This document shows, one piece after another, positions 27,021-32,506 of a stretch of 32,554 nucleotides of DNA (position 1 is the stretch's first letter; each line of letters opens with the position of its first letter). The stretch spans positions 1 through 32,554 of the forward strand of contig JAUVSF010000005.1 of the NCBI GenBank assembly GCA_030597245.1, in the 5' to 3' direction. The DNA comes from Acidobacteriota bacterium. Its GTDB lineage: Bacteria > Acidobacteriota > UBA6911 > RPQK01 > JAPXNP01. Under the pieces are notes generated by a model. That model saw only the letters and a program-made list of their open reading frames with translations. It did not search any database and was not told where the DNA came from. Position numbers and translations under genes: made by a program.

Positions 27021-29882
27021 TTAGAACGAGTACTTCAGGGCGATCTCGATTTCCCTTGCTCGAGCAGCACCAAAAATCTTGCCAAACAGGTCGGTTCCGA
27101 AACTCGAGTTTGGGCGGTCGAAATTGACGTTGTTAAAGGCGTTGAAAAACTCGAGCCGAAACTCCAGCAAATCTCCGTCTGAGAAGCGTGTCTGCTTAAT
27201 CACGCTGAGATCCCAAGCCTGGTAGCCCGGACTTGTCAAAATGTTCCGGCCCGAGTTTCCGAAGCTATAGGGGGCCGGCTCAGCAAAAGCACTTGTGTCG
27301 AACCATTGATCAATTGACCGAGCACTTGAAGGAAGGACACCGGAAGAGAGTCGGTCGGGACGGTCTCCGTAAACACCGTCGTTGTTTAAGTCGCCCGGGA
27401 GCGTAACAGAAAAGGCCCTCCCATCTCGAATCTCGGTAATCCCGGAGAGGCGCCAGCCGTCGATGGCCCAGTTAACCCAGGCAGAGGTGTCCTGGAAGGG
27501 GCCCAGAGACGTCAAAGGCAAGTCGACAATGTAGTTGAGGAAAAATCGGCGTTTTGGAACCCAGTTCGATGTCGCCTTTTCCGCTCTCAAGTTCCTTGGA
27601 TTTGATGGATCTCCCCAGATTTCATCGGAAAGGATGCTATTCCACTCAAATCCTGAGCGTAGTGATAAGCCGGCCGAGAGTCTCTTCTGAGCCGTGAAGT
27701 CCAAACTGTGTCCCGTAAAACTCCCGCCATCATTGACGATTGAGAATCGGCCGAAATTGGGGTTTGGTCGCCGTTCCTGGATTTGTCCTTCACCGGGCAA
27801 CGGCACGTTTCCCGGAATGACGCGTGTCGCACTCGAGCCTTTCCGACCTACATATGCCACCTCGAAGCTCCAGTTCCTGACGAACTCGTTGTTGACCGCC
27901 AGCCTCCAGTAGTGCCCGTACGCGTTGCTCAACCGGGGTTCCATCCCGCGCATCGTCATTTCGGCTGTGGCATCGCTTCCAAAAGGGTCTTCGATGTCGA
28001 TGGTCGGCTCAGTGTTTGACGATTCTGCACTCTCAACAAAGTAGAACGGGTAGTTTCGGGTGAGTGAACGGGTAAAGTACCATTGGCTCGGCGGATTGTA
28101 CCAGATGGAATAACTTGCCCTTACTACCAGTTGATTGGTCCCCATCGGGCTCAAGGACAGGCCAAGATGCGGAGACCAGTCATTCTTGTCTGGGAAAACC
28201 AAAGACCCCGGCACTGCACCATCGAACCCCAGCTCAGAGGCACGCTGCGAACCGGCGATAATGATTTCCCCATCGACCGGTGGCTCGAATAGCAGAGGAT
28301 AAAACCCCGAAACGTTGTCGGCGATCGAATGATAAGGGGGGATGAATCGATACGTCATCCCGTACGAGAAAGACAGGTTGGGTTTCGCTTTCCACTGGTC
28401 TCGGAATGAGAACTCCAACTGGTTTCGTCTCAGGTCTGCACGATCAGATCCAATCCCATGAGACGCGGAATCGGGTATCCCCAGCAGAAAGTCTGCAAAA
28501 CCGTCGCCTGTGAAGGTGCCGTTATAAGAAAACGCTCCTCTGTAACGTCCATCAGACCTGAAGTTATTCAGTTGACGTCCCGTGATTTCGAAGCTTGCTC
28601 GAAAGGTATGATTATTCTTAACGTAAGTAAGACTCGTATCTAGAGAGAGGCGGTTCCGGACTGAACTCTCTGGCGATGACCGGTCCCCAAACGATGTATA
28701 TCCGGTCAGGTTGAAGGCCGGATATCCCTCCTCGAGGGGATCGTTGATTCTGAGGCCCTCGATCCCGAGTGATTCCAGCAATCCCTCATTTCCGGCATTC
28801 CTTGAAAGACCATAGTCGCTGCTTCGGTCGAACTCGAGCTTCGCAAATGTAAGCAGTCGGTCGGATGCCGACCAGTTATAAGACAAGGAAGCCTCGTGGT
28901 CTCTCCCCACCGTGTCAGAGTTGAAAGTTGGAAAATTATGCACACGAACACGGTTGGCTCTGGTGTAGACATACTCAACGAAGAGCTTGGATCGAGGGTT
29001 CAGATCTATATCGGCCCTGGTACTGAAGTGATCATGGTTCCGTACCAGCGGATCATTGTTCACATAGTTACGATCTGGATCCTCTCTGTTCGGGTCGGGA
29101 ATGACATCCAGGAGTCGCAGAGCAACCGGACTGATGCGGTCTTTAGGGATTCTGTTGTCGGGAAAAGGGAGTCCGGTCAACGGGTCGATGATCGGGACCT
29201 CCAAAGCGCTGAAGTCGCCGCCTTTCATAGCTGGACTCGGAACATGGGATAGAAGAGTGGAGCCCTGGTTAATTCTCAATCCGTCATAGCTGCCGAACAA
29301 AAAGATCGCAGACGAAAGCTGCATTCCCAACGTGAAACCGAACTGGTTCCTTTTATATTCCGGCAGGGGCTCGCCAGGAGGATCGAAGTAGTTTGGCGCA
29401 TCGAAGTTGTCATTGCGGTGGAATTCATAAAGCGATCCGTAAAACCTGCCCTGCTTCCTGGCCGGAAAGGGATTAATGAGGTCGGATAGGTTCTGAGAGT
29501 TCAGGGTCGAGGTTTTAGTGACGCCAATTTCGTACTCGCGAATGGCGGCAAGCGATGAATCGCCTTCCTCTTCCGGTTTCAGGTTGAGTTCTCGAGTTTC
29601 TCCCTCCTCAACTAGAATCTTTGTTAAGAGGGTCTGACCACCCTTGTCCTGGCGATAAATTCGATAGTGCCCAGGGGGGAGCTGAACTGAGAATTGTCCG
29701 GCATCATCCGTCTTAACGGTAGTCTCTTCACCAGTCGAAGAATTGACGACCAGCAGCTCAGCATTCGGAGCAGCAGCCCCGGAGGTTTCCTGGACAGTTC
29801 CTTCCACAGTAGCCGTAGCGGCGAACACTCTTCCACCCAGAACGAGAAGAGTCAAAAACGCCAGCATCGACACCCGCTTCAT
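27021..29882 (-). CDS. Oar-like TonB-dependent outer-membrane receptor with reduced plug
   Basis: A 953-residue outer-membrane beta-barrel. Residues 1-21 are a signal peptide; residues 24-103 form a carboxypeptidase-regulatory/Cna-B-like beta-sandwich (VEGTVQETSGAAAPNAELLV ... REYEI). The barrel starts near 146 with GRFYGSLYEFHRNDNFDAPN and RNQFGFTLGMQLSS, the standard start in Acidobacteriota Oar-like receptors, and ends LKYSF with the C-terminal Phe of BAM substrates. In typical homologues roughly 100 residues of plug, with a NGRN-like loop, lie between the beta-sandwich and IEEF-like strand. Here the equivalent of that strand (IREYEI, 114-119) follows at once, so most of the plug seems missing. 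The ATG overlaps the stop of the preceding secreted-protein gene by 4 nt. The cargo is unknown; no TonB or inner-membrane importer is adjacent. Confidence 0.87.
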   Translation of the reverse strand: MKRVSMLAFLTLLVLGGRVFAATATVEGTVQETSGAAAPNAELLVVNSSTGEETTVKTDDAGQFSVQLPPGHYRIYRQDKGGQTLLTKILVEEGETRELNLKPEEEGDSSLAAIREYEIGVTKTSTLNSQNLSDLINPFPARKQGRFYGSLYEFHRNDNFDAPNYFDPPGEPLPEYKRNQFGFTLGMQLSSAIFLFGSYDGLRINQGSTLLSHVPSPAMKGGDFSALEVPIIDPLTGLPFPDNRIPKDRISPVALRLLDVIPDPNREDPDRNYVNNDPLVRNHDHFSTRADIDLNPRSKLFVEYVYTRANRVRVHNFPTFNSDTVGRDHEASLSYNWSASDRLLTFAKLEFDRSSDYGLSRNAGNEGLLESLGIEGLRINDPLEEGYPAFNLTGYTSFGDRSSPESSVRNRLSLDTSLTYVKNNHTFRASFEITGRQLNNFRSDGRYRGAFSYNGTFTGDGFADFLLGIPDSASHGIGSDRADLRRNQLEFSFRDQWKAKPNLSFSYGMTYRFIPPYHSIADNVSGFYPLLFEPPVDGEIIIAGSQRASELGFDGAVPGSLVFPDKNDWSPHLGLSLSPMGTNQLVVRASYSIWYNPPSQWYFTRSLTRNYPFYFVESAESSNTEPTIDIEDPFGSDATAEMTMRGMEPRLSNAYGHYWRLAVNNEFVRNWSFEVAYVGRKGSSATRVIPGNVPLPGEGQIQERRPNPNFGRFSIVNDGGSFTGHSLDFTAQKRLSAGLSLRSGFEWNSILSDEIWGDPSNPRNLRAEKATSNWVPKRRFFLNYIVDLPLTSLGPFQDTSAWVNWAIDGWRLSGITEIRDGRAFSVTLPGDLNNDGVYGDRPDRLSSGVLPSSARSIDQWFDTSAFAEPAPYSFGNSGRNILTSPGYQAWDLSVIKQTRFSDGDLLEFRLEFFNAFNNVNFDRPNSSFGTDLFGKIFGAARAREIEIALKYSF

Positions 29883-30571
29883 AATATAAGTTTACCCGAA
29901 ATGATCATGTTTTGGACCGGAAAAATCGCCCTCAAGACAGGCTCGTTTCCCGGTGTGTCAAATTCAAACACAATTGTCTCGTCATCAGTTGTGACGACAG
30001 GAACGCCTTCGAGGTTTCTCGGAAAAACGAATTTTGCCCCCACGCTGGCCTCCCTCGGCGGGTAATAGGCATCAAGTTGAATTCTCGGGAAACTCTCTGT
30101 CGAGAGGTAAGCCCGGTTCTTCAGGGTTTCCAGGGACTGTCTTTCAAGAAACCGATCGAAGCCCGATTCCCGGTTATGGTCATTGGAGCGAAAACTGACA
30201 GCCACAATGATCCACTTGGAGACATCGAGATCGACGATCTCTGCTATCTGGTGATCAACTCGTTGCTTCTCCTCATCGGGTAACTGATCGTAGCCGAGGT
30301 TGATCAGCTGGACTCGAGCGTATGCTTTGCGAACGGGTTCGGCGGAAAGGAGCCTCACAAAGTAGGTACTATAGATCTCCTTTTCACCCTGTATGCCACT
30401 GCCAACCCCCCCCACAACCCGCGTGAAGGTTTCCTGACGCACCCAAGCCGATTTGGTCAAGATTTCGACAGCTTCCGGAAGACTCCAGCTCCGGAATGCG
30501 TCTTCTGCTCGGGACGGGCTCGAGACCACCGGGACGAAGCTGAGAATTAAGAAGATGATTGAGACTCGCAT
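29879..30571 (-). CDS. Secreted protein of unknown function, coupled to the receptor gene
   Basis: The 230-residue protein has a clear signal peptide (1-22, ending SPSRA-ED) and no membrane segment afterwards. The start of the mature part, FRSWSLPEAVEILTKSAWVR, and the end, VLRAIFPVQNMIISGKLIL, resemble a group of exported hypothetical proteins common in Acidobacteriota; no enzymatic motif is visible. A pair of arginine/acid-rich helices (about 80-112) is followed by a beta-rich half. The ATG overlap (ATGA) with the downstream Oar-like receptor shows the two are made together, suggesting a partner role at the outer membrane. ATG 30571 is preceded by GGAA. The promoter should lie in the 189-bp spacer shared with the divergent TPR gene. 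Confidence 0.68.
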   Translation of the reverse strand: MRVSIIFLILSFVPVVSSPSRAEDAFRSWSLPEAVEILTKSAWVRQETFTRVVGGVGSGIQGEKEIYSTYFVRLLSAEPVRKAYARVQLINLGYDQLPDEEKQRVDHQIAEIVDLDVSKWIIVAVSFRSNDHNRESGFDRFLERQSLETLKNRAYLSTESFPRIQLDAYYPPREASVGAKFVFPRNLEGVPVVTTDDETIVFEFDTPGNEPVLRAIFPVQNMIISGKLIL

Positions 30572-30760: not shown

Positions 30761-32506
30761 ATGAATCTGACACTCATCCGCCGCAGAATCTTCTCAATAA
30801 TCCTCTTGGCTTTCACCTGTTCCTGGCTCCCTGCACAGTCCATTAACGAGTACCGGCAGCAGGTTTCGAGTTTGATGATTGATTTCCGGTGGGAGGAAGC
30901 CCTTCATCTTGCACGTGCAGGGCTGGAGCAGTTTCCCAAGGATCCTGATCTGTTAGTCGCAGCAGGGGCGCTCTCGATGAAGCTCGGAAAGACTTCGGAA
31001 AGTGCACGTCTGGTCAGGAGAGCTCTGCAGCAACCGCAGGTGAATCCTACCCTCTTAGGGATTCTTGCCGATCTGAGATTGACCGGTGGGGATTCCGGAG
31101 CTGCCGTTGCCCTATATGAGAAGGCGCTCGAGGCTGGAAACGATCAAGCCTCGCTTCGATACCAACTCGCCAGGGCTCTTCTTGAGCAAGGCCGTGAGGA
31201 GGAGGCTCTGGAGAGTAGTGCTCGGGCGGTGGAACTGGATGGGCAGAATCCGAAGTACAGAAGTCTTTACGCATCGCTGTTGGATCGGAGCGGCCAGCCT
31301 GATAAAGCCGTACTGGAGTTGAAGCTGGCTCGAGCCCTGGCTCCGGAGGATGCTCGAATACTGTTGCGATTGAGCGACAAACAGAGACATCTGGGTCATC
31401 CCGGCCGCGCCATTGAGTTCCTCGAAATGGCCCGCGAAGTGGACCCCGAGAATCCGCTTTATCCGTCACTTCTGGCCGAACTGTATCAGGAACTGGGTGT
31501 GGCCTCGGAAGCGGAGGCTGCCGGCAAGACCGCCGCCAGGCTGGACAGTGCATTCGAACTCTATATGAAAGCCTTGGAACTGGTTTCAGAAGGCCGACCC
31601 TCGGAAGCGGTACCACTCTTAGAGAAAGCCACGGCTGAGGCTCCCGAGTTCGCGACGGGAACGCTCTTTCTCGCTCATCTGTACCGCAAGGTAGGAGAGC
31701 CCGAAAAGGCTCTCGAGCTGTACAATCAGATCCTTGAGCACAATCCCTCCAGCTCTCGGGCTACTCAAGAGTTGGCCTGGCTGTACGTGACCCGTGGCGA
31801 TTTCGACTCGGCCGTTTCATTACTCGAGGCTTCAACTCAGAGACAGGACAATCTGCATCTACTCGAGGGCTACCGGAAGCAGTTAGCTGAAGATTGGGAT
31901 GGAGCGATCTCAGAGTTCATGAAGGTGGAACCGGCCTATCCCCTGGATACGGGCGTGTTGTTGCAACTTAGTTTCTGCCTCAGCTCAGTGGGGAGGGCAG
32001 AAGAGGCTCTCCGCTATCTCGAGAAAGCCTACACGGTCAGCCCCGGGGATGCTGAGATTGAGAACGCAGCTCGTAGAGTGCGTTTCGAACACGCGGTCAG
32101 GATGGAGAATCAGGGCCGGTGGGCGGCCGCCTTGCCGCTACTCGAGCGCCTTTGCCTGGAAGAGGAGAACGCTGAGTATCGGCTTCATAAGGCCTATGCG
32201 GAACAGAAACTGGGCCGTTTCAGGGAAGCGATCGAGGATTACAGGAGTGGCCTCCGCCTCGATCCGGAGGCTTCTTGGGCTCGTATCAATCTGGCAGTAT
32301 GCCTGGATGCACTCTTCCTCTACCACGAAGCTACTGAGCAGTGGCAGTATCTGGTAACACAGGACCCTCAGCCCAAGCACATCTACGGATTGGGCCTGAG
32401 TCTAATCCGATACTGGAAGCTGAAGGAGGGTTGGTCGTTGGTTGAGCAGGCAGCTACTGCAGGTCACCTGCCGGCTGAGAAGTTGTTGAAGCGGAGAAGA
32501 CGGTGA
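30761..32506 (+). CDS. Exported tetratricopeptide-repeat protein
   Basis: Residues 1-26 form a signal peptide (MNLTLIRRRIFSIILLAFTC then SWLPAQ), and nearly all of the remaining 555 residues are consecutive 34-residue TPR units. Examples are ALYEKALEAGNDQASLRYQL, ALELYNQILEHNPSSSRATQ and REAIEDYRSGLRLDPEASWA; I estimate twelve or more repeats. TPR solenoids bind other proteins, so this is probably a periplasmic scaffold, but no partner is identified. It is divergent from the secreted-protein/receptor pair, with 189 bp between starts, so it may share regulation with them. ATG 30761 has AGAAG eight bases upstream; an out-of-frame ATG five bases earlier is ignored. A GGTNATC heptad array begins soon after its stop. 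Confidence 0.88.
   Translation: MNLTLIRRRIFSIILLAFTCSWLPAQSINEYRQQVSSLMIDFRWEEALHLARAGLEQFPKDPDLLVAAGALSMKLGKTSESARLVRRALQQPQVNPTLLGILADLRLTGGDSGAAVALYEKALEAGNDQASLRYQLARALLEQGREEEALESSARAVELDGQNPKYRSLYASLLDRSGQPDKAVLELKLARALAPEDARILLRLSDKQRHLGHPGRAIEFLEMAREVDPENPLYPSLLAELYQELGVASEAEAAGKTAARLDSAFELYMKALELVSEGRPSEAVPLLEKATAEAPEFATGTLFLAHLYRKVGEPEKALELYNQILEHNPSSSRATQELAWLYVTRGDFDSAVSLLEASTQRQDNLHLLEGYRKQLAEDWDGAISEFMKVEPAYPLDTGVLLQLSFCLSSVGRAEEALRYLEKAYTVSPGDAEIENAARRVRFEHAVRMENQGRWAAALPLLERLCLEEENAEYRLHKAYAEQKLGRFREAIEDYRSGLRLDPEASWARINLAVCLDALFLYHEATEQWQYLVTQDPQPKHIYGLGLSLIRYWKLKEGWSLVEQAATAGHLPAEKLLKRRRR

Follow-up and report, generated by a model that had tools for sequence, protein, structure and literature searches.

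A plug-less Oar-like outer-membrane receptor and its linked exported partner in Acidobacteriota: a possible trans-gated channel

Within the window, the 32,554-nucleotide stretch of Acidobacteriota DNA analyzed here, an Oar-like outer-membrane receptor has lost most of its plug domain, and the gene directly upstream of it in the same operon (4-base ATGA overlap) encodes a small exported protein (Table 1). We propose that this separate protein may close or gate the receptor-derived barrel from the periplasmic side, a reading to which we assign a probability of about 0.5. Somewhat short of even odds, in our estimate, is the broader claim that such pairs form a natural class of channels derived from TonB receptors. 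In this class a dedicated, unrelated gating protein acting in trans would stand in for the lost cis plug and TonB coupling, and in one lineage it would have become fused to the barrel.

Table 1. Features of the receptor and partner genes (positions in the window; residues in the respective protein).
Feature	Residues	Position	Strand	Basis
Plug-less Oar-like outer-membrane receptor, 953 aa		27021..29882	minus	ORF; PF13620 and PF25183; orthologues from 20 class genomes
N-terminal β-sandwich, CarboxypepD_reg	24-101	29580..29813	minus	Pfam (25-101); AlphaFold2 strands (24-101)
Stretch at the plug position, about 90 residues missing, remainder predicted disordered	104-146	29445..29573	minus	Alignment; pLDDT; plug HMM
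IREYEI remnant, counterpart of the I-x-E-F strand in ordinary Oar plugs	114-119	29526..29543	minus	Alignments
LSDLINPFPARKQGR motif, conserved in the family, in place of the last plug strand VNVVTKSGTN	132-146	29445..29489	minus	20 orthologues
β-barrel, about 22 strands, C-terminal Phe	147-953	27024..29444	minus	AlphaFold2; Foldseek
Exported partner, 230 aa		29879..30571	minus	Next to a receptor or fused to it in all 23 close copies; no Pfam, NCBIfam or PDB match
Invariant-rich loop R..TFTRVVGGVGSGIxGEKEI, candidate receptor contact	45-66	30374..30439	minus	Conservation in linked partners

The receptor ORF is free of internal stops. Pfam places CarboxypepD_reg (PF13620) at residues 25–101 (E = 2e-13) and the barrel family OMP_b-brl_4 (PF25183) at residues 147–945 (E = 3e-180), with no Pfam domain between the two. 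The barrel is complete and the protein terminates in KYSF, with an aromatic last residue, in agreement with a preliminary description of this DNA that had called the barrel intact. The CarboxypepD_reg extension of the Oar subclass, present in the window receptor, is missing from many orthologues and is thus optional in the plug-less family.

The same description held that most of the plug was missing, which is borne out by two comparisons with ordinary Oars. In a profile alignment of the window protein with 13 plug-less orthologues and 28 ordinary Oars, positions 116–253 align with the plug of the solved TonB-dependent receptors FepA, PfeA, and PirA; the window protein has 49 residues there, compared with 130–146 in the 28 ordinary Oars, a shortfall of about 90 residues. 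An HMM of the plug part N-terminal to the I-x-E-F strand, built from ordinary Oars, had no match in the window protein or in any of its orthologues, even at E values as high as 1000 (hmmsearch --max). At E < 1e-5 it matched 74 further Oar-like ORFs, including four from the window protein's own genome. The true misses of this HMM are two ORFs (L153 and L164), both truncated where a locus or contig stops. As the 86 ORFs labelled ordinary by a regular expression include ten plug-less orthologues (the window protein counted), the HMM scores were used instead. By plug HMM, residue count and structural model, the receptor lacks the N-terminal plug that sits inside the barrel of TonB-dependent transporters (TBDTs). 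In ordinary Oars the plug is preceded by the TonB box (E-x-V-x-V-x-A), a segment lost with the deletion seen in the alignment; judged from sequence, the receptor appears to be without a TonB-box region, and a cryptic TonB contact may exist elsewhere in the protein.

The preliminary description had the sandwich run straight into the IREYEI strand. The start of this strand at residue 114 stands, and the junction proved less bare than described, with two remnants kept across the family, I-x-E/D-Y-x-I and (V/I)NPFx(A/V)(R/K)KxGR, followed by the first barrel strand GS(V/L)YEFHRND. Ordinary Oars have I-x-EF and VNVVTKSGTN at the remnant positions. Within the second motif, N137 and F139 are invariant and P138 and G145 are conserved at 90% or above among 20 orthologues, and the mean conservation of residues 133–146 is 0.70, vs. 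0.64 for the barrel.

The AlphaFold2 model of the receptor (42 sequences) has a mean pLDDT of 86.6, with most of the barrel above 85, and consists of the sandwich and a complete barrel of about 22 strands (hand count on the DSSP string), retaining the long conserved extracellular loops. Residues 104–142 are disordered (pLDDT < 50), and no substitute plug within the receptor chain was seen on the DSSP string of this model, the point on which a structure prediction of the receptor alone had been suggested. TBDTs were the top Foldseek matches (E to 3e-22; target-normalised TM of 0.42–0.64 among the matches listed), in keeping with a predicted barrel of the TBDT fold.

The window assembly is MAG-like and fragmented (748 contigs), which might suggest that the missing plug reflects an assembly gap, a frameshift or decay into a pseudogene. 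Independent assemblies argue against this: the closest homologue (G001, from another genome, 89% identity) has an identical junction at the plug deletion, and the alignment of homologues shows the junction to be shared by all orthologues. Full-length plug-less orthologues are present in 20 of the 38 genomes covered for the class. The frames are open, and because dN/dS between G000 and G001 is 0.12 for the receptor and 0.13 for the partner, both genes are under purifying selection; residues 104–146 give 0.07, over a short stretch for which significance was not assessed. The orthologues together with the dN/dS values rule out these artefacts for practical purposes, and we consider them highly improbable. 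The cassette was found only in one class of Acidobacteriota, none being detected outside it in 247 genomes drawn across the phylum (E ≤ 1e-45). This class is probably UBA6911 of GTDB; the named orthologues come mostly from Acidobacteriota MAGs, among them a genome of subdivision 18 (gp18 AA62) and several that bear the label Zod.

Coupling of the receptor to the 230-residue protein, stated in the preliminary description, which suggested that this protein might close the pore, emerged as a consistent property of the family. In the class, 22 genomes yielded 23 close partner copies (220 bits or more), and each lies directly upstream of, or is fused to, a plug-less receptor, which makes the partner an obligate neighbor. 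In 20 of the 23 the partner is immediately upstream on the same strand. In G010 the two genes are on two contigs whose ends share approximately 98 bp, joining the pair, and in G031 the first ~62 residues of the receptor follow the partner at the contig end. G017 carries a fusion (L082:2-1234; G017:C12, minus strand), a single ORF that starts with a signal peptide and continues through the partner domain and an NPF-type motif into the barrel. It lacks a second signal peptide, and its partner domain occupies the position of the plug domain. The contig ends inside the barrel, and a complete natural fusion was not found. Up to 1.5 kb from a more diverged partner copy in G035 (208 bits) there is no receptor, and the ordinary Oar loci L116–L181 have no partner homologue up to 7 kb away. 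The mirror-tree correlation between receptor and partner (r = 0.92) was not taken as evidence, since shared ancestry alone yields it. A conserved operon beyond the two genes was rejected: close relatives share the wider gene neighborhood of the window, and otherwise the flanking genes vary from family to family.

Further copies were recorded at several loci. G030 has two separate cassettes (G030:C3:87151-90527 and G030:C23:34291-37675). At L085:8326-10706 in G002:C1, a second partner fragment, interrupted by masked N stretches, lies beside a divergent TPR protein that resembles the TPR protein of the window at 30761-32506, and a second receptor fragment at G002:C1:4434747-4436291 is interrupted by masked N stretches. 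The partner at G024:C27:1344-2036, adjoining an intact receptor, has one in-frame TAG near its N-terminus, which could reflect a pseudogene, a sequencing error or a later start.

The partner carries a signal peptide, and no lipobox was seen. It had no match in Pfam or NCBIfam, nor to the PDB by sequence. Homology to the plug was considered and rejected (hhalign probability ~0.1%, E = 0.39), as was a short, non-significant match between its GEKEIYSTY loop and the plug motif GAREAANNF. Among the linked partners, R45, T48, G55, G57, S58, G59, G62, E63, and E65 are all conserved at 100%, whereas the same nine residues are at 15–62% in 13 more distant homologues (the G017 fusion among them); P79, F183, P184, and R185 are at 85–100% in both sets. 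Residues 42–65 mostly have a pLDDT below 50 in the isolated model. As the loop at residues 45–66 is near-invariant in linked partners, poorly kept in distant homologues and of low confidence when modelled alone, it is a candidate receptor-binding loop. Distant exported paralogues of ~190–265 aa occur with no receptor nearby (L096:7442-8188, L097:7027-7824, and L085:6530-7258); they form an uncharacterised Acidobacteriota family for which a Pfam entry was not found. The partner family also recurs in other Acidobacteriota genomes (L041, L042, L045, and L046), multicopy in some, with the common pattern W......L..SPW ... (V/I)R..SA.P(V/I)R.A ... F(I/V)FPR.

On the reading we favor, the two genes would together specify an outer-membrane channel made in two parts. 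The larger part, without its plug and TonB-box region, is predicted to be an Oar-type TBDT barrel with about 22 strands; the smaller exported protein would bind it from the periplasmic side and close or gate the pore, replacing the plug in trans. The likeliest contacts would be IREYEI and NPFxARKxGR at the N-terminus of the barrel and the loop at residues 45–66 of the partner, and the channel may operate without TonB. The strict linkage, together with the fusion, makes a periplasmic gate acting in trans the most likely reading in our judgement, and the same linkage makes a constitutively open pore less probable. Several observations count against the favored reading. The fusion is known from one contig, in a genome listed as 76% complete; the mature partner, at ~205 residues (signal peptide estimated), is bigger than a plug; its model (pLDDT 74.5) gave nothing against the PDB by Foldseek at E ≤ 0.001; its sequence shows no kinship with the plug; and distant partner paralogues lacking such a receptor indicate that the partner family has an independent existence.

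The main rival to gating in trans, which we hold to be unlikely, is export of the partner through the plug-less barrel. Pore and cargo would then be a two-partner secretion pair derived from a TonB receptor, and the G017 fusion would be an autotransporter-like form of it. In type V secretion, passenger and barrel can likewise be either split or fused, and the signal peptide of the partner, the lack of a visible lipobox and the position of its gene directly upstream all fit a secreted cargo. Export also has a precedent in Myxococcus xanthus, where Oar is needed for the secretion of the protease PopC (PMC6434023). However, M. xanthus Oar lacking its plug secreted no PopC and accumulated to lower levels (PMC6434023); in that species the plug is required for PopC secretion. 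The conservation of the partner also argues mildly against cargo, as it resembles that of the barrel (mean pairwise distances of 0.46 and 0.50, respectively, with similarly close dN/dS), unlike that of a typical variable exoprotein, and partner paralogues exist without such a barrel.

We give still less weight to the view that the partner is a periplasmic accessory, either an assembly chaperone or a substrate-binding protein, with the barrel a permanently open large diffusion pore or narrowed by its own loops only. Some barrel proteins do require dedicated periplasmic helpers, the partner is part of a larger exported-protein family, and the sandwich and extracellular loops that remain in the receptor are compatible with such an arrangement. 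An unplugged TBDT barrel of this width is, however, expected to leak, the fusion and the strictness of the linkage point beyond the role of a transient chaperone, and Foldseek against the PDB detected no binding-protein fold for the partner.

A barrel gated in trans can be compared with several known systems, FpvAI and SprA-Plug serving as precedents for it. Ordinary Oars such as that of M. xanthus (CarboxypepD_reg, plug and a PF25183/TBDT barrel) share with the window receptor the signal peptide, a homologous barrel, the C-terminal Phe, the TBDT fold (predicted by the model for the window receptor) and an optional CarboxypepD_reg; the window receptor differs in having neither plug nor TonB-box region and in its obligate upstream partner. 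SprA-Plug of the type 9 secretion system combines a large barrel with a separate Plug, the arrangement that we propose for the window pair; SprA is a far larger, 36-strand barrel. SprA is sealed by its separate Plug protein (PMC10994853). In FpvAI, a soluble plug supplied as a separate chain complements the plug-less barrel (PMC10994204), so that function is restorable by a separate polypeptide when the cis plug is absent; that plug-less barrel is a laboratory construct, whereas the window pair is natural and its partner is not plug-like in sequence. SusCD resembles the window pair in combining a TBDT barrel with an obligate partner from an adjacent gene, but SusD is a surface lipoprotein that forms a lid and SusC retains its plug (PMC7782687), whereas in the window partner no lipobox was seen and the G017 fusion sets the partner at the N-terminus of the barrel.

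In open-access full texts searched with a few exact phrases, a natural plug-less receptor family was not found, and engineered or proteolysed plug-less receptors were. The plug is regarded as the defining, function-giving domain of TBDTs. A conserved natural family that does without it and is bound to a single small exported protein would illustrate how a gated receptor can become another kind of outer-membrane channel, and the receptor and its partner would provide a clean system of just two genes in which to ask how so wide a barrel stays closed.
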